A stretch of DNA of 21,556 nt, from the IMG/VR virus record IMGVR_UViG_3300034407_001675, positions 1 to 21,556 of that record; one strand, 5' to 3'. The DNA is from a virus. The translations under genes were made by a program, and so were the position numbers. The notes beneath the pieces were generated by a model that worked only from the letters and a program-made list of their open reading frames with translations, was not told where the DNA came from and ran no database searches. Each line of letters starts with the position of its first letter. Position 1 is the first letter of the stretch. Below, piece by piece: positions 12,680-21,556 of this stretch.

Positions 12680-12684
12680 CTATG
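12673..12684 (+). promoter_or_regulatory. Shared translation-initiation segment (tail tip gene)
   Basis: AAGGAAGTTTAACTATGGC before the tail tip gene closely matches AAGGAGTTTAACTAATGGC before the terminal fibre gene (20833-20851), differing only by single-base gaps. The purine-rich part is the Shine-Dalgarno sequence. A third copy of the AGTTTAACTAATG part is at 15245-15257, without the SD. Confidence 0.5.
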
Positions 12685-15255
12685 GCAGCAGCCGCACCTA
12701 TCATTACAGCAGTAACGGCACAAACCGTTCAGGGGTTTGTACTTAGATTTGCATTATCAGTAGCAGTATCATTTATTGCAAACAAATTATTTGCTCCAGA
12801 TGTACCTGCTGGTCCAGGAATAGCCGATCAAGCCCCAGATCCTGGTGTTAGACAAAGAATAGCTTCTGATCCTGGTAACAAATTACCTGTTATTTATGGA
12901 CAAAGTAGAGTATTTGGTTCAATTACATTTGCTGATATAACATCTGATAACCAAACAATGGCATTTATTATTACATTGTGTGAAGGACCTATTGAAAATA
13001 TTGGTCAAATATGGTGGGATGATTATAAATTAACTTTAGATAGTGATGGTAATGTAACAACTGCAACAGATTCACAAGGTGGAACTGATGATTTTTTAAA
13101 TGGAAATTTGACAGTTAAAAAATTTAAAGCAGGTGGAAGATGTTCTCCTATGGAAACATTTTCAAGTAAATGGGCAAGTAATGCTGTAAACAGAACAATG
13201 CCTAATGTTGCATATTTATATGTAGAATTAAAATATAATAGAGATGAATCTGTAACTGGTTTAACAAGTAAACTAGGAGCAGAAGTTCAAGGTAAATTAG
13301 TTAGAACATTTAATGGATCTACTTTATCAAGTGGTACATCTTATTCAAATAATCCTTCTGAATGTTTATTAGATTATTTAACTAGTACTGTTTATGGTTG
13401 TGGCGATGTAATGAGTGATAGTGATATTGATTTAACTACATTTGCATCTCATAAAACATTTTGTGATACTTTAATTACACACACAGATAAAGATGGTAAC
13501 AGCACAACAGCAAAAAGATATACAACAGATGGTGCTATAAATACATTTGATGAAAGAGATTTAAATGTTTCTGATTTAGTTGTTTGTTCTCAAGCTATAT
13601 TTTCTTATCATTTAGGTAAGTTTCAAGTTATTTCTGATACTACAGGATCATCTGTAATGTCATTTAATCCAGATAATATGTATGGTGATGTTACAATAGT
13701 TAATGATGGTTTTAATAGTGCATTAAATAAAATGAATATTTCATTCTCTTCTTATGATCAAAAATATCAAGATGATCAAGTATTTTTAAATTTACCTGAT
13801 AACTTAAAATCATATAATGAGCCTGAATTAGTTCAAGATACAAGATTTAAATTTGTAAATAATAATATAATGGCTGAAAGACTTGGTCATATTATTGTTA
13901 AAAAATCAAGAGATAATTTAATTATTTCATTTAAAACAGATACAAGGGCTTTAGCATTACAAGTTGTAGATATAATATCAGTTACAAATAGTACTTACGG
14001 TTTTACTAATAAATTATTTAAAATTAATTCTATTACTGAAAGTGATATGAATGAAGATGGTGTATCAGGTTATTTAATTACTGCTCAAGAATATAATGCA
14101 GATGCATATGCAGAAGAAGCATTAACAGAATTTCAAACAGCACCTAATACAAATTTAGCTAATCCTAGAAATTTTGGAGCAATTACAAATTTAACAGCAA
14201 TTAGTAGCGATACAAATTCTACTACTCCATTTGTACAATTACAATGGACTGTACCTACGGGATTAACAGAAACATTTGAAATATATGTTGGAGATAATAT
14301 TAATGCTGCTATTGCTGATAGAGAATTTAATATTTCATTTAGAACATCAACAGGTCCATTTACTGAAGGTGCAACAATAACACATAAAGTATTTGATTTA
14401 GATTTTACAGATACATTAGTATTTTGGGTAAGACCTATTAACCAATTTGCTAGAGGATCATTTTCTAATTCTTATAACTTTGGTGTATTTAGACCTAGTA
14501 CTGGTGGTATTACTTCAGGGGCTTCTGGAATTATTGTTGACCCTAATGATACAAAAAATCCTTATGGTGTTGTAAACAGATTTACTCAAATTAGATATGG
14601 TGATAGCAATACTGGTTTAAATATAAGAGATAGTTTTGATCCAGTAGATGCTGTTCAACAAATAGGTTATACAGGTACAACAATTAATAATATTACTAGA
14701 ACAGGTAATGCTGATGGTTCGGGATCTGTAACATTTCCTACAGCTTTTAATTCAGGTACATCTGTACAAGAAGTTCAAGAATTAAGTTTTACAGGAACAA
14801 GAGGTAATGTAACACAAAAAGAATTATTACATATTGGTTTAGCTGATGAAATATTAAATAGTACATCTAGAAAAACAATTTCAAATATTGCAGATTGGAA
14901 TGCTACAGGATTTTTAACTGCAGATAGTTCAAATGATAGTGTTAAAGTTAATGATACTTTAGAATTAGCTTCATTAGTATCTGAGGGAGTATCAAGTGGA
15001 TTTGGAAGATCAGTAACTATAGGTACTAATACTATATATGTAATGTCTGATACTGAATTATTTTCATTTAGAAGAACTAATTTTACATGGGAATCTTATG
15101 CAAGAACAAATGCAGGTGGTGTTCAAAACTTTAATGTTTCTAGTATGGGAGATGATGTTTTATTATATAATAGCTCAACTACTGAAGGTCAAATATGGAA
15201 TTATTATTTAATCCCAGCTACAACAGGGGCAACAGGGGGAGCACAGTTTAACTAA
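12682..15255 (+). CDS. Tail tip / host specificity protein, gpJ-like
   Basis: 857-aa TipJ-type protein at the tail tip that contacts the host receptor. The hydrophobic N-terminus (about 6-38) is followed by KLPVIYGQSRVFGS (about 65-78) and ITLCEGPIENIGQIWWDD (about 96-113), the core signature of the gpJ family. The hub domains reach to about 490, a fibronectin-III-like region follows (about 494-597, with VQLQWTVPTGLTETFEIYVG), and the C-terminal 250 residues are beta-rich and probably variable. The last residues are GATGGAQFN, a peptide also found at the end of two other tail genes. The nucleotide sequence of that end is unusually G-rich for this genome. Length is below lambda J (about 1,130 aa). 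The stop overlaps the next start. Confidence 0.9.
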   Translation: MAAAAPIITAVTAQTVQGFVLRFALSVAVSFIANKLFAPDVPAGPGIADQAPDPGVRQRIASDPGNKLPVIYGQSRVFGSITFADITSDNQTMAFIITLCEGPIENIGQIWWDDYKLTLDSDGNVTTATDSQGGTDDFLNGNLTVKKFKAGGRCSPMETFSSKWASNAVNRTMPNVAYLYVELKYNRDESVTGLTSKLGAEVQGKLVRTFNGSTLSSGTSYSNNPSECLLDYLTSTVYGCGDVMSDSDIDLTTFASHKTFCDTLITHTDKDGNSTTAKRYTTDGAINTFDERDLNVSDLVVCSQAIFSYHLGKFQVISDTTGSSVMSFNPDNMYGDVTIVNDGFNSALNKMNISFSSYDQKYQDDQVFLNLPDNLKSYNEPELVQDTRFKFVNNNIMAERLGHIIVKKSRDNLIISFKTDTRALALQVVDIISVTNSTYGFTNKLFKINSITESDMNEDGVSGYLITAQEYNADAYAEEALTEFQTAPNTNLANPRNFGAITNLTAISSDTNSTTPFVQLQWTVPTGLTETFEIYVGDNINAAIADREFNISFRTSTGPFTEGATITHKVFDLDFTDTLVFWVRPINQFARGSFSNSYNFGVFRPSTGGITSGASGIIVDPNDTKNPYGVVNRFTQIRYGDSNTGLNIRDSFDPVDAVQQIGYTGTTINNITRTGNADGSGSVTFPTAFNSGTSVQEVQELSFTGTRGNVTQKELLHIGLADEILNSTSRKTISNIADWNATGFLTADSSNDSVKVNDTLELASLVSEGVSSGFGRSVTIGTNTIYVMSDTELFSFRRTNFTWESYARTNAGGVQNFNVSSMGDDVLLYNSSTTEGQIWNYYLIPATTGATGGAQFN

Positions 15256-15782
15256 TGACAATATTAACAACATTAACAAATTTTGATATTAGTAACAATA
15301 TAGTAGATTCAAATGATAATATTATTGTTTGGTATAATGGAACTAAAATAAAATATTATCACAGATATGAACAAGTATCTACAGATGTAGAAACTATTAG
15401 TGGTGTTATTTCAATCAAACTTTTAAGTGATACTAATGTAAAAATAACTACAGCTTCAAAAGTTAGAGAATTAATTTTAACAAGACCAGGTACAACAAAT
15501 ACATATACAATTACTTTAGATAGTAATTATGATAATACAAGTAATCCGATAAGAGCATGGGAATTATCTTTAACAGATTATGGTAATTTAACAGCTGTTA
15601 TGTCTTCAACTGTTGCAGGTACGGCTACGGCTATAGCTTCAGCAATTAATAACTTAACTAATTTTAGTGCTAGTGCCAATAATAATATAATCACTTATAC
15701 TAATTCAGTTTCACAAATTGTACAAACAAGTTCAATAGATTTTAATGACTTTATTGCAACTGGTGGTGCACAATTTAACTAA
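15255..15782 (+). CDS. Beta-rich tail accessory protein with QFN C-terminus
   Basis: 175-aa protein starting one base inside the tail tip stop. It has an N-terminal beta region (1-80), then a module TNTYTITLDSNYDNTSNPIR ... TAVMSSTVAGTATAIASAIN (about 81-132), then FSASANNNIITYTNSVSQ. The A-x-A-I-A-x-A-I-N helix flanked by strands also appears in the next gene, so the two are probably related by duplication of a fibre module. It ends with IATGGAQFN. I know no function; location and low-complexity Ser/Thr/Asn composition suggest a tail fibre or tip decoration. Confidence 0.75.
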   Translation: MTILTTLTNFDISNNIVDSNDNIIVWYNGTKIKYYHRYEQVSTDVETISGVISIKLLSDTNVKITTASKVRELILTRPGTTNTYTITLDSNYDNTSNPIRAWELSLTDYGNLTAVMSSTVAGTATAIASAINNLTNFSASANNNIITYTNSVSQIVQTSSIDFNDFIATGGAQFN

Positions 15783-15800
15783 TAATAAAGGAAATTAAAA

Positions 15801-17945
15801 ATGGCAGCAATTAGTTCTGTTTATGTAAACGCAGGAACATGGGCAGGGTCAGATATTATTACTGGTGTTACTATGAGGAATAGTTTAAATAATATTCATC
15901 CTATAGATTCTAATTCTGTTGTTGCAGTAAATACTACAAATACTCAAGTATATACTGACGATGGAACTGGAACATATGTATCACAAGAAACTTATTCAGA
16001 TTCAAATGATGTTATTGGTTATGGTAAAGAATTTATTTTAAATAATAATTTATATATTTATAATACTACTGAGCCTAGTTCAGAAACAAGATGGATTTCA
16101 GGTTCAAATACTAAATATTCAGTAAATTTAGGATCTTTAGGATCTTTTACTAATAATATTTTTTCAAATCAAATTAATTCTATTGATGCATTAAATGAAA
16201 TTAGAACAGCAATATTAGGATTAAATATAAATAATTTATCAGTTTCATTACCAACTTATACATCAGATATAAATCCTGATAGTGGTACTATTAATTTTGA
16301 AGGATATGAAATAATAGTTAATACAGGTACAGCTACAAATGAAACAACATCTTTTTCAATTAATGATGCTGGTGCTGATGGTACAAATATTACTGCAAAT
16401 TATGAATATGAAACAGATGGTACTGGAACTTCAGCTGCTACAACTATAACTTTAACTGAGCCACATGGAACAGAAACATTAACATTAAGTGTTGCTGCTG
16501 ATACTGTTAATGATGATCAAGCTAATCAAATTGGAACAGATTTAATTGCATTAGTAAATAATAATATTGAATCCCCTAATGATTATTCTGCTACATATGA
16601 TAATATTAATAAAAAAATTACATTTACATCAGTACAAGCTATAGATTCAGATGTAACTAAATTATGGACTGCTACAGTAAATAATGGATCTGCTACTGCT
16701 CCTGATGTAGGTGATATTGTTTTTGGAACATCATCAATTACAACAACAGGTGTATTAGGAGAAACATATCTTATTTCAGCACCTAATTTAAATACTAAAA
16801 CTATAGGAAGTGATCCATTATTTAGTCAAGTTACATTTACTGGTGGAACAACACAAATATTTAGTAATAATTTAGATGCTACTGCTGCTGCTCTTGAATT
16901 TAAAAATGCATTAAATGCTTCTTTAAATGGATATATGACAGCAACTATAGATTCAGGAGATTCAAAAATAGTAAATTATACTACATCTATTCAAGATGAT
17001 ATTGGATTAGATTTTACTTTTTCTGATTCAAATATTACAAAAAGTATTACTCAAGGTATTTTAGGAACTACTCAAACTAATATAAATGATGCTGGTAAAA
17101 CTAATGTTTTATTATATAAACCAGGAAGTTCTGTTGCTGATTTAAATAAAAGTTTTGTTGGTTTTGTACCAACCTTATCTGGTGCTATAAATAATATATC
17201 AGATATAGTAAGTAATATAAATACATTAACTACTGATTGGGTTATTGAAAAAGATCAACCAACATCTGGTCAAATTAGATTTACTTCAGTTGATAGTGCA
17301 TATTATAATGATATATTTAGATTAATTGTAACAAATAATGCGGCAACAGGTACAACAGTTGGTGATTTTTCAACAGGATCTGGTAATGCTTCAATTACTA
17401 CATTAGGTTCATCGGTTCCAAATTATTATGGTTTAAGATCTGTAACTTTAGCTAATAAAGATATATTTTCAAATACTACAACAGATTATTCTTGGTTTGA
17501 AACTACTAAAAATAGTTTAAATACTATATTTCCAGGATATAAAGTAGATGCTTTAAAAACTCCAGAATTTGCTTTTGATGGATTATCAAATGGTTCTGCT
17601 GCATTAGTAGATGGGTTTTTTGATATAACTGCTAATTTAAATGGTCAATATGTTATTGATACTGATGCAATTACTTCTACGGAAATATCTAATATACCAG
17701 TTGATCAATCTACTAATACAATAAATGGATCTGAAATGGTTTATTATTCTACTAAATTATATTTAGCATACAGGGTAAACAATGACAGTGAAATTACTGG
17801 TTTATCATTAGGTGCTAATGATTCTGGTGCAACAATTTATACTAACCCAGGAACTACCTATACAATAGTAGATAGTAATAATGATGCTTTACTTGCATCT
17901 TATATCTATAAATGGAATGGTACAGCTTGGGTCAAAGAAACTTAA
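15801..17945 (+). CDS. Large beta-repeat tail protein, probable fibre
   Basis: 714-aa protein, Ser/Thr/Asn-rich with few Lys and no Cys. Two internal copies of a module are visible: KITFTSV (about 271) to TATVNNGSATAPDVGDIVFG and SSITTTG (to about 317), and QIRFTSV (about 489) to RLIVTNNAATGTTVGDFSTG and SITTLG (to about 536). Between them is a related helix-strand unit (TAAALEFKNALNASLNGYMT, about 354-373). The C-terminal domain ends with YIYKWNGTAWVKET, a W-N-G-T-A-W motif common in phage fibre and adhesin proteins. It lacks the QFN tail of its neighbours. Codons are almost all A/T-ending. Role in adhesion is inferred from position and composition. Confidence 0.75.
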   Translation: MAAISSVYVNAGTWAGSDIITGVTMRNSLNNIHPIDSNSVVAVNTTNTQVYTDDGTGTYVSQETYSDSNDVIGYGKEFILNNNLYIYNTTEPSSETRWISGSNTKYSVNLGSLGSFTNNIFSNQINSIDALNEIRTAILGLNINNLSVSLPTYTSDINPDSGTINFEGYEIIVNTGTATNETTSFSINDAGADGTNITANYEYETDGTGTSAATTITLTEPHGTETLTLSVAADTVNDDQANQIGTDLIALVNNNIESPNDYSATYDNINKKITFTSVQAIDSDVTKLWTATVNNGSATAPDVGDIVFGTSSITTTGVLGETYLISAPNLNTKTIGSDPLFSQVTFTGGTTQIFSNNLDATAAALEFKNALNASLNGYMTATIDSGDSKIVNYTTSIQDDIGLDFTFSDSNITKSITQGILGTTQTNINDAGKTNVLLYKPGSSVADLNKSFVGFVPTLSGAINNISDIVSNINTLTTDWVIEKDQPTSGQIRFTSVDSAYYNDIFRLIVTNNAATGTTVGDFSTGSGNASITTLGSSVPNYYGLRSVTLANKDIFSNTTTDYSWFETTKNSLNTIFPGYKVDALKTPEFAFDGLSNGSAALVDGFFDITANLNGQYVIDTDAITSTEISNIPVDQSTNTINGSEMVYYSTKLYLAYRVNNDSEITGLSLGANDSGATIYTNPGTTYTIVDSNNDALLASYIYKWNGTAWVKET

Positions 17946-17952
17946 TTAACAA

Positions 17953-17978
17953 AAATATATATCTACAGGTATATATTT
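17953..17978 (+). other. AT-only inverted repeat with nearby repeated word
   Basis: AAATATATA (17953-17961) and TATATATTT (17970-17978) form a perfect 9-bp stem with loop TCTACAGG. CTACAGG occurs again at 17993-17999, where it provides the Shine-Dalgarno of the following gene. The gap (17946-18006) is one of the longest in the window. It could be a weak terminator or a regulatory RNA hairpin; the stem is AT-only and may be weak. Confidence 0.4.
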
Positions 17979-18006
17979 AACTCATAACTAACCTACAGGA
18001 GATAAT

Positions 18007-18456
18007 ATGAGAATATCAAACATACAAAATTACTTAGGAGGAGCAGATAATATTATTGCTCGAGAAATATCTGAAGGTAATCAATTTTTACTATCAATAG
18101 AAGATGGCACTATAGATTTTAGTTCTGCAAGTACTACTTTTGATATAGAAGCTGTTTTATTTGAAGCAAATGTTACAAGAAAAAGAGGATCTATAGTAAT
18201 TGATTCATTAACAAAAGAGCCTACTGCAACACAACATAATTATACTAAAGCAGAATTAATACATAATACTGGTACTGCTGGTAAATTTGAATTATTAGTT
18301 CCCGAAACATTATTATCAGATCAAGGAAGTTTTACTTCAACACCTGATGATACATCACCCTATATTGTGGTAATGAAAGTACAATGGGCTGCAGGAACTC
18401 CTGAAGTTAAAAATTCAATTAGGTTTGTATTTGTAATAAGATACCAACCTCAGTAA
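18007..18456 (+). CDS. Unknown tail-region protein (149 aa), BppU-like N-terminal type possible
   Basis: 149-aa beta-sandwich-like protein. It begins MRISNIQNYLGGADNIIARE, then NQFLLSIEDGTIDFSSASTT, FDIEAVLFEANVTRKRG, and later YIVVMKVQWAAGTPEVKNSI with a final strand RFVFVIRYQPQ. The alternation of strands resembles small immunoglobulin-like or baseplate upper-protein (BppU N-terminal) domains that anchor fibres, but I cannot confirm homology. It has a clear AGGAGA Shine-Dalgarno close to ATG and is preceded by the hairpin gap, so it may start a new translation unit. The next gene is the collagen-like fibre, 13 nt away, suggesting a fibre-anchoring partner. Confidence 0.7.
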   Translation: MRISNIQNYLGGADNIIAREISEGNQFLLSIEDGTIDFSSASTTFDIEAVLFEANVTRKRGSIVIDSLTKEPTATQHNYTKAELIHNTGTAGKFELLVPETLLSDQGSFTSTPDDTSPYIVVMKVQWAAGTPEVKNSIRFVFVIRYQPQ

Positions 18457-18469
18457 GGAATAAAATAAT

Positions 18470-20788
18470 ATGACAATTAAAATAGATGGAACAACTGAAA
18501 CAATTGTAGTTTCAAAACAAACAGGACCAACTGGTCCAACGGGTCCTCAAGGACCAACAGGTCCACAGGGTCCACAAGGTGATCAAGGTATTCAAGGTTT
18601 AACTGGACAAACAGGACCAACAGGTCCAGCTGGTGCTAAAGGTGATCAAGGTATACAAGGTCAAGCTGGGGCTCAAGGTCCACAAGGTTTACAAGGTATT
18701 AAAGGTGATACTGGTGCTACTGGTTCAATTGATATTACTGGTATTAATAATACTATTGATTCACGTGTAAATAAAACATTTGTTGATGCTTTAAATGTTG
18801 ATGCTGCTACTTTAGATAATTATAATGCTTCTGCTTTAGAAAAAATTGCTAACAAAAATCAAATTAACGGATATGCAGGATTAGATGCTGCTGGTAAAGT
18901 TGCAAATGCACAATTACCAAGTTATGTAGATGATGTTGTAGAATATGCTAATTTTGCTTCATTCCCAGCTACTGGAGAATCAGGTAAAATATATGTTGCT
19001 ATTGATACTGGTGATGTTTACAGATGGGGTGGAAGTAGTTATGTACAAATTAATGACGCAGTTACATCTGCTGATCAAGCTACAAGATTAGCTACTGCTA
19101 GAAATATTGCTTTAACAGGTCCAATAACTGGTACTGCTAGTTTTGATGGTACTGCTGATGCTAATATTTCAACTACATTAGATTTATCTTCTAAGTCAAC
19201 TAATGATTTAATTGAAGGATCTAATTTATATTATACTGATACTAGAGCAAGATCTTCTGTATCAGCAACAGGTTCAATATCTTATAATTCTGGAACTGGT
19301 GTATTTTCTTTTACACAAGGTAATACTGATACAATTTCAGAAGGTTCAACTAATTTATATTATACTGATGCAAGAGTTCAGACAGTTATTAATACAAATA
19401 CAGCTGGTTTTATTACAGCAAGTTCAACTGATACTTTAACAAATAAAAGTGGTAATATATCACAATGGATAAATGATGCTGGTTATATAACAAGCGAAAC
19501 TGATAGCCAAACATTATCATTTAGTACTCCAGATTTAACTATTTCAAATGGTAACTCTGTTGATATTAGTACATTATATAATCAAAGTTTAAATACTACT
19601 GATGATGTTATTTTTGGCGAAGTTGAATCAACAGAATTTATTGGTCCATTAAGAGGTGAAATATTATTCAAAGCACAATCAGGAGAAGCTTTAACAAAAG
19701 GTGATGCTGTTTATGTAAGTGGTGTAACTGGTTCAACACCAATTGTATCAAAAGCAAATGCAAGTAGTGCCTCACATATGCCATCATTTGGTGTAGCAGG
19801 ATCAACTGTAAATACAAATAATCCAGTTGATATTATTGCATTTGGACAAGCAACAAATTTAGATACAACTGGTAATGGTGGTGAAACTTGGGCATTAGGT
19901 GATGAAATTTATGTAAGTGCTACAACTGCTGGTGATTTAACAAATATTCAACCAACAGGTGAATCAAACTTTGTTCAAAAGATTGCAAAAGTTGAAAAAT
20001 TACACGCAACTACAGGAACACTATTAATAAGTGGTGCTGGTAGAAGTAATGCTACACCAAACCTTAATGATGGTAAAATATTTATAGGTAATGCATCAAA
20101 TTATTCAGTAACTAATACTTTAGATACATCAATTGTACCTGAAAATACTAATTTATATTATACTGATGCAAGAGTTGATGCTAGAATAACAGCAGCTAAC
20201 CCTACACCAACTATTAGTTCTATTTCTCCAGACACAATTACTAATGCTGAATCAACAATTACAATTACTGGATCTAATTTTATATCGGGTACTCAAGTTG
20301 AATTTATAAATACTGCTACAGGTATATGGTATCCTGCTTCAACAATTACATTTAATAATTCTACATCATTAACAATTACAATTACTTTAAGTGTTGATGC
20401 TCAATATAGAATGAGAATAGAAAATCCAGATGGTAATGCAGTTATATCAACTTCAAATATTTTAACTGTATCTGATGCTCCTACTTGGACAACTGCTTCT
20501 GGTTCACTTGGTACATTTGCTGGAGATTTTTCTGGTATACTTGCAACCGTTGCAGCCACTTCAGATAGTGCTGTAACATTTAGTGAAGTTGGAAGTAATT
20601 TGGCTACGGCTAATGTTACTTTATCTTCTGCTGGTGTTTTAAGTACAACAGATTTTGGTGGTACAAGTACAACAGCAACAACATATAATTTTACAATCAG
20701 AGCAACCGATGCAGAAGGTCAAATAGCAGACAGAAGTTTCTCGCTTACATCTTCTTATGGTGCAACTGGTGGTGGACAATTCAATTAA
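18470..20788 (+). CDS. Tail fibre with collagen-like stem and IPT/TIG domain
   Basis: 772-aa fibre. A collagen-like Gly-X-Y region has 22 uninterrupted triplets (G19 to G85), likely a trimeric stalk. Next is the common fibre segment [20 protein letters not shown] (about 131-150) and [20 protein letters not shown]. Three NLYYTD(A/T)R repeats follow, at nucleotides about 19221, 19349 and 20147. An IPT/TIG-like domain (about 577-665, [20 protein letters not shown]) and a putative Ig-like domain (about 668-765, with [15 protein letters not shown]) lie near the C-terminus. It ends GATGGGQFN. The DNA repeat between copies two and three is 30 nt exact. The architecture indicates receptor binding; trimerisation is inferred from the collagen-like part. 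Confidence 0.9.
19221..20176 (+). repeat. Repeated DNA inside the fibre gene (NLYYTD repeats)
   Basis: Copies at 19349-19378 and 20147-20176 are identical over 30 nt, about 800 bp apart; 19221-19240 matches the first part over 20 nt. They encode [10 protein letters not shown] and [10 protein letters not shown]. All are in the same reading frame, so recombination between them would delete or duplicate an in-frame fibre section. Confidence 0.85.
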
Positions 20789-20808: not shown

Positions 20809-20847
20809 ATGAAAAAAATAAATAAAAAAATTAAGGAGTTTAACTAA
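20809..20847 (+). CDS. Possible 12-codon leader ORF
   Basis: ATG at 20809 encodes MKKINKKIKEFN and its TAA overlaps the ATG of the next gene. AAAGGA lies 12 nt upstream, a little far. The peptide ends in EFN, reminiscent of the QFN ends nearby, and its last bases (AGTTTAACTAATG) equal the end of the tail tip gene. It could be a leader that couples translation, a scar of a lost QFN-tagged gene, or chance. Confidence 0.25.
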   Translation: MKKINKKIKEFN

Positions 20848-21556
20848 TGGCTAGTACATATTTAACATTTAATGAAACAAGAACACCATCTAATCAAACT
20901 AAATTTACTTATAGTTGTTGGCTTAAAAGAAGTAAAATATCAGCAGACCAAACAATTTTTTATAATCATAAAGATGTTAATAATTATGGTTATATGTATT
21001 TTAGGGGTACAGATGATATAAGATATTTTGATAGGGTAGGTGGTGGAGATACTGCTATTTTTGTAACAAATAATCTTTTTAGAGATACTTCAGCTTGGTA
21101 TCATTTAGTTTTAGAAGTAGACACTACACAAGTTACAAGTTCAAATAGAATTAAATTTTATGTTAATAATGAACAAGTAACTTTTGCTTCTTCAACAATT
21201 CCATCACAAAATCAAGCTCTTTCATTACCTGTAGATGGAACAAAAACTATTGGTGCAAGTAATGGTGGCAGTAATCATTTTGATGGCTCAATGTCACACA
21301 TTAATTTCATAGATAGCACAGCTTATGACCCAACAGCATTTGGAGAATATGATGCTAATGGTGTTTGGAAAATTAAAACTTCTCCAAGTGTAACTTATGG
21401 AACTAATGGTTTCTTTATTCTTAAAAATGGTAATTCAGTTACAGACCAATCTGGTAATGGTAATAACTTTACAGTTGCAGGTGGTACATTAACTAATACT
21501 GAAGATAATCCAAGCAATGTTTTTGCTACATTAAATCCTTTAGATAATTTTTATAA
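20847..21556 (+). CDS. LamG/concanavalin-like tail fibre protein, 3' partial
   Basis: 236 residues are visible before the window ends in an open frame. It resembles a marine phage fibre family with a LamG/concanavalin-A-like beta sandwich: FTYSCWLKRSK (20-30, usual F-S-x-W-V-K-R), then FRDTSAWYHLVLEVDTTQ (78-95), IKFYVNNEQVT (102-112), the G-S-N-H-F-D-G-S-M-S turn (141-150), and the glycine/asparagine-rich DQSGNGNNFTVAGG (about 199-212). Such domains usually bind sugars or surface glycans. The start is strongly supported by AAGGAG eight bases upstream and the shared initiation segment. The length of the missing part and whether it ends in QFN cannot be seen. Confidence 0.85.
   Translation, partial: MASTYLTFNETRTPSNQTKFTYSCWLKRSKISADQTIFYNHKDVNNYGYMYFRGTDDIRYFDRVGGGDTAIFVTNNLFRDTSAWYHLVLEVDTTQVTSSNRIKFYVNNEQVTFASSTIPSQNQALSLPVDGTKTIGASNGGSNHFDGSMSHINFIDSTAYDPTAFGEYDANGVWKIKTSPSVTYGTNGFFILKNGNSVTDQSGNGNNFTVAGGTLTNTEDNPSNVFATLNPLDNFY

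Follow-up and report, generated by a model that had tools for sequence, protein, structure and literature searches.

We analyzed a stretch of viral DNA of 21,556 nucleotides (hereafter the window; IMG/VR record IMGVR_UViG_3300034407_001675) in which three tail proteins end in the same short peptide, ATGG(A/G)QFN, referred to below as the tag. The open reading frames (ORFs) of the window were listed and searched with the pattern A-T-G-G-x-Q-F-N, which gave exactly three matches, each followed by TAA; the number expected from 100 dinucleotide shuffles of the window was 0. The tag ends a J-like tail tip protein (J), a protein of 175 amino acids (aa) and a 772-aa fibre, and it is lacking in the 714-aa and 149-aa proteins, all of which agrees with a first-pass annotation of the window. 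Between the tags of J and the 175-aa protein, 4 of 24 bases are different, each time synonymously, and the fibre tag adds an Ala to Gly replacement and synonymous TTT/TTC and AAC/AAT changes, again as previously noted. Downstream of the fibre lies a gene for a LamG lectin, the candidate acceptor of the tag (Table 1), which matches Pfam Laminin_G_3 (E 2e-13; 51.1 bits, above the Pfam curated cut-off of 27.6) and phrog_27411 (E 1e-63).

Table 1. Tag carriers, tags and the lectin region of the window (RBS, ribosome-binding site)
Feature	Coordinates	Strand	Remarks
J-like tail tip protein, 857 aa, tag carrier 1	12682..15255	+	phrog_31 central tail fiber J, E 6e-39
J C-terminal tag ATGGAQFN	15229..15252	+	TAATG stop/next-start overlap; Gly codons GGG GGA
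175-aa tail protein, tag carrier 2	15255..15782	+	no family match
175-aa protein C-terminal tag ATGGAQFN	15756..15779	+	Gly codons GGT GGT; next gene has its own RBS
772-aa fibre, tag carrier 3	18470..20788	+	collagen-like N-terminal part (Pfam Collagen), variable middle, C-terminal ~200 aa common with pelagiphage tail fibres
Fibre C-terminal tag ATGGGQFN	20762..20785	+	Gly codons GGT GGT; next start not overlapped
12-codon leader ORF MKKINKKIKEFN between fibre and lectin	20809..20847	+	TAATG, stop overlaps lectin start; AAGGAG just upstream
LamG lectin, proposed acceptor, gene cut by window end	20847..21556	+	starts MASTYL, without SLRFN strand in cis

The three carriers differ in what surrounds the tag. 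The first-pass annotation counted homology of whole domains extending upstream as grounds against its reading; this applies to the fibre, whose C-terminal domain of ~200 aa reaches about 80% identity with cultured pelagiphage fibres (80.5% to the HTVC201P fibre over residues 573-772), but not to J or the 175-aa protein, whose C-terminal tails are unlike that of the fibre. Within the J and 175-aa families, the residues that immediately precede the tag vary. Residues 18-605 of J are ~50% identical to the tail tip J of Kolga, which has no tag. A tblastn search of the 175-aa protein against cultured phages gave no match, and its derivation as a fragment of the 714-aa protein was rejected, as no useful similarity between the two was found. 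The leader ORF between the fibre and the lectin itself ends in EFN, and further short leader ORFs occur at the same joint in three relatives (L258, L276, L290).

Far from being only as common as composition predicts, the tag followed by TAA was found in at least 119 stretches in an open scan of IMG/VR. All 212 GG-x-QFN reading frames checked have a stop right after the motif, all 337 ORFs with a QFN end in our final set of loci are tag-like, and no internal GG[AG]QFN was found within the 1.65 million residues of that set; the tag is strictly C-terminal on its carriers. These are of three kinds, namely J-like tips, 175-aa proteins and fibres with a repeat-like C-terminal domain. QFN is invariant in 17 distinct J tails, where the preceding linker is variable, and in 21 distinct tails of the 175-aa family, and divergent J tails retain GSAQFN or IGAQFN. 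The tag is widespread among SAR11 phages, both podophages and siphophages. Its repeat-like fibre domain occurs in 25 Pelagibacter phage records, in podophages of Pelagivirus, Stopavirus and Votkovvirus, and also in unclassified groups such as Greip, Skadi and HTVC103P. A host motif was considered and rejected, since among 84,980 cellular genomes only 7 stretches matched and the frames read resemble phage tail genes. One contig binned as Campylobacteraceae, CAKZOX010000150.1 (L136, L141), bears J, 175-aa and fibre tags of the window phage type and is probably mis-binned phage DNA. At 32298-32576 of HTVC011P (L129), the annotated tail fibre stops ~280 bases short of the tag and the tagged 3' part is an unannotated 115-aa ORF, which suggests a frameshift or a sequencing error.

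The evidence that links the tag to the lectin is the reciprocal distribution of the tag and the first strand of the lectin. Homologous lectins that we call one-piece start with ...GGYxIxRSLRFRSSASAYLNRTP (also ...NSLRFN..SAYLSRTP), and lectins of tagged phages, called split, start with MASTYLTRTP. The two junctions are collinear without gaps (SLRF-R-SS-ASAYLNRTP versus GGQF-N-(stop, Met)-ASTYLTRTP): the GGQFN of the upstream gene stands opposite SLRFR, and the stop codon and the initiator Met stand opposite two serines. In a lectin-centred scan that was blind to tags (80 loci), 70 lectins start with MA.TYL and have no SLRFN, and in all 70 cases the adjoining upstream gene carries a tag or a variant of it, of which 66 are clean, 3 are degenerate and 1 is truncated by the end of the contig; the other 10 have NSLRFN in cis, and none of these has a tagged neighbour. 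Over all loci, 174 split lectins have an adjacent tag, 86 one-piece lectins have none (plus 3 one-piece lectins misread by the pattern), and the combination of a one-piece lectin with a tag was not seen. The remaining split lectins are L313, whose tag is cut by the contig end, L084:7025, with the variant GSGGFQ, and L362, with an untagged neighbour. Around one-piece lectins, 0 of 2866 ORFs have tag-like ends.

Variants of the tag fill the space between the two forms. Upstream of strand-less lectins we also found NNSMSFN, NNSGQFN, NNSGGFN, NNGGQFN, TGSGGFN and NSGQWNP, so that NSLRFN (in cis), NSMSFN, NSGQFN and TGGGQFN appear as a graded series bridging the one-piece strand and the tag. When a hidden Markov model (HMM) of one-piece lectins was applied to four lectins against 1,500 C-termini not ending in QFN, drawn from 1,887, NNSMSFN ends ranked in the top five for three of the four.

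Structure models agree with this distribution. Models were made with AlphaFold 2 and family alignments. In that of the one-piece lectin L327 (mean predicted local distance difference test score, pLDDT, 88.5), the first strand is formed by SLRF (residues 20-23, pLDDT about 95 there). In that of the window lectin (mean pLDDT 90.5), the later strands match those of L327, the SLRF strand is absent and the first strand comprises residues 5-9. The split model has a jelly-roll fold and aligns with C-reactive protein and serum amyloid P over about 180 residues (Z 17.7, root-mean-square deviation 2.6). Its residue 1 aligns to residue 11 of these two pentraxins, and residue 17 of the one-piece model aligns to their residue 5; alignments with neurexin and PAPP-A gave a similar shift between the models. 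Because the split model starts at the next strand and its pentraxin alignment at residue 11, the window lectin is predicted to lack strand A of its own LamG fold.

We propose, with a probability of about 0.8, that the tag is strand A of a LamG jelly-roll lectin, donated in trans by the C-termini of tail proteins. This reading is based on the reciprocal distribution, the strand missing from the model, the collinear junction, the intermediates, and the codon switch described below. The lectin would be synthesized without strand A, the C-terminal peptide of a tail protein would insert as the missing strand and complete the lectin, and the inserted strand would fix the adhesin non-covalently to the fibre tip. 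The same peptide on J and the 175-aa protein would also fix the lectin to the central tail tip. Physical docking, including that to J and the 175-aa protein, is what we infer from these observations. Among the roles suggested for the tag by the first-pass annotation, that of a docking tag for a common tail partner thereby gains support, the partner being very probably the lectin at 20847 and the tag its displaced first strand; nothing was found in favour of a chaperone or maturation signal.

Several points weigh against this proposal. The loci are related, so the counts do not represent phylogenetically independent events and Fisher values are nominal. The likeness of the tag to the one-piece strand is weak: it adds a mean of 2.9 bits to the one-piece HMM, in three of the four test cases ~7% of random C-termini equalled it, and in the fourth the tag brought no gain. 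An inward-facing Leu of the strand is replaced by Gly in the tag. With regard to J, the records are fragments, and further tags may lie outside the 30,952 bases of the record discussed next; with regard to the 175-aa protein, the argument for use in trans consists of tag identity.

Donation by J in trans can be considered in siphophage records. Those with three tags have a single lectin each. One record, G021 (L362), has as its fibre an untagged 1543-aa protein, and an in-frame deletion that fused the 175-aa gene to the 714-aa gene has removed the tag of the former. The sole [AG]QFN end within its 30,952 bases is that of J, and a strand-less lectin with its own RBS and an untagged neighbour lies ~8 kb downstream of J. 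This layout is as a role in trans for the J tag predicts. In the same record, a hairpin-like inverted repeat, ATATAGGCCTA...TAGGCCTATAT, is present at L362:20390-20424, just upstream of the lectin gene.

The DNA of the tag has a second use, which was absent from the earlier account of the peptide. GGNGGA(G) lies ~11 nucleotides upstream of the overlapping ATG where the next gene starts within TAATG, and of 160 distinct cases with this context, 153 have GGA, GGG or GGC as their second Gly codon and 7 have GGT. Where there is no overlap, GGT is found in 21 of 25 and GGA, GGG or GGC in 4 (Fisher 5e-18, nominal), and the peptide is kept with GGT GGT. Both codon states are seen within the J family and within the fibre family. 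The Gly-Gly codons thus probably supply the Shine-Dalgarno sequence of the overlapping gene, which would account for the glycine-rich look of the tag; in most fibre genes, GGN GGA GGA CAA TTT AAC TAATG would double as the Shine-Dalgarno sequence of the overlapping lectin gene. In a class of junctions with a TAG stop (TAGGATAATATTATG), the RBS follows the stop and the peptide is nearer to the one-piece strand (NSMSFN). This class comprises L017, L038, L088, L105, L119, L287, L288, L301, L315 and L321, most of which have TAGGATAATATTATG and the others close variants of it; in those measured, the lectin start lies 12 bases downstream and in frame, as though a single stop codon divided the two.

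The cassette itself has a regular layout. The gene order in cultured tagged phages is tagged fibre, LamG/SPRY lectin, DUF7483 protein, with the lectin gene either adjoining the fibre gene or separated from it by a short gap; lectin matches are confined to LamG and SPRY. HTVC103P and HTVC104P have two such cassettes each, L084 has three, with its own tag variant for each lectin, and the second lectin of HTVC200P (L128) is preceded by a tagged 46-aa remnant of the fibre end. There, at ~31383-32592, an inverted DUF7483 gene accompanies the remnant of the fibre 3' end, an arrangement that is a recombination scar of cassette insertion. The idea that the tag marks the boundary of an exchangeable module is borne out at the fibre, where it marks the joint to the lectin at which cassettes have been duplicated and inserted (HTVC200P, HTVC103P, L084). 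The lectin and DUF7483 are fused in one protein in MEP301, CRP-811, SS120-1 and C72C1, and no tag occurs in the tail genes read around these fusions. Among 26 Pelagibacter records with a downstream DUF7483 gene, 25 have the tagged domain and the exception, HTVC202P, has the strand in cis. In some cultured pelagiphages (L124:34901 and similar), a one-base overlap of stop and start codons connects the lectin gene with that for DUF7483; here the same ancestral adhesin may have been split a second time. A natural fusion of fibre and lectin was not found in the loci set.

Such cassettes could also be taken to mean that the tag is a passive scar of a gene split between fibre and lectin followed by recombination, with a built-in RBS and no binding role. 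The TAATG overlap and Shine-Dalgarno-like Gly codons of most fibre genes are compatible with this, as are the HTVC200P duplication and the tandem cassettes of HTVC103P and L084. We consider it unlikely, however, because QFN is invariant in the J and 175-aa families, neither of which adjoins a lectin, the peptide is retained as GGT GGT where the RBS is not needed, and J is the only carrier in G021; nor would a scar explain why every such lectin lacks strand A. Less probable still is that the tag serves some other common partner (a chaperone, another tail protein, DUF7483 or a component of the host surface) and that the missing lectin strand is a coincidence. Its presence on three tail proteins and the position of DUF7483 just after the lectin in tagged podophages would suit such a partner, but one-piece lectins without any tag are likewise accompanied by DUF7483 (MEP301, CRP-811, SS120-1), tag presence tracks absence of the strand in cis, and no tag-tracking chaperone gene was noticed among the annotated genomes read. 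That the tag is purely a DNA signal for ribosome binding or translational coupling, with the peptide as a by-product, is very improbable: the spacing of GGNGGA(G) and the context-dependent codon choice would fit, but the peptide persists, with non-Shine-Dalgarno GGT codons, ahead of genes that have an RBS of their own, and the Q, F and N codons vary synonymously.

The one-piece lectin is likely the ancestral form and the split lectin derived from it, since one-piece forms occur in phages of diverse hosts. We slightly favour a further step, in which the strand became portable: lost to the upstream fibre, it would have been copied onto the central tail tip and a further tail protein. A single strand-less lectin could then decorate several tips and pass from one SAR11 phage family to another, unrelated one without refitting, and the codons of the strand would double as the RBS of the lectin gene.

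In chaperone-usher pili, a second polypeptide contributes the strand that an incomplete beta-sandwich lacks (donor-strand complementation). Donor-strand exchange is also reported for TasA fibres (PMC9674648). The window lectin resembles these systems in that its acceptor fold lacks one strand; it differs in the type of acceptor, a LamG/pentraxin-type lectin, in the proposed donor, which would be the extreme C-terminus of several unrelated tail proteins, and in the apparent origin of the strand, which seems to have been moved from the N-terminus of the lectin itself. In K1E/K1-5/SP6-like and Klebsiella phages, receptor-binding proteins are attached through short conserved peptides (PMC6872550). 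As proposed here, a short peptide (7 residues and up in those phages) links tail adhesins, but there it is N-terminal on the adhesin and docks to T4gp10-like domains, whereas the tag is C-terminal on the carrier and would be a strand of the adhesin. No T4gp10-like domain was among the Pfam hits of the proteins scanned, and no further search was made. The gp37 fibre of T-even phages has a tip adhesin, gp38. In PP01, gp38 sits at the fibre tip (PMC12892980). The proposed arrangement is similar in having a separately encoded adhesin at the fibre tip, with its gene adjoining the fibre gene, but the adhesin is a LamG lectin, which gp38 is not. We know of no tag shared by several tail proteins in the gp37/gp38 system. 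Further counterparts are the LamG-SPRY-DUF7483 adhesins of MEP301, CRP-811 and SS120-1, in which a homologous lectin has the strand in cis and the neighbours are untagged. Our literature search found no description of the tag, the split lectin or DUF7483.

The hosts of pelagiphages are the most abundant bacteria of the surface ocean. Pelagiphage lectin-like genes have already been described as hypervariable regions linked to receptors (PMC10504331; PMC3909814), which fits an exchangeable adhesin. If our proposal is correct, a short C-terminal motif would make it possible to recognise, from sequence alone, the adhesin, its carriers in the tail and the border of an exchangeable cassette. It would also suggest a rule for natural adhesin exchange, in that any tagged tail protein should accept a strand-less LamG lectin, and would be a clear case of one short sequence with two functions, those of a structural strand and a ribosome-binding site.

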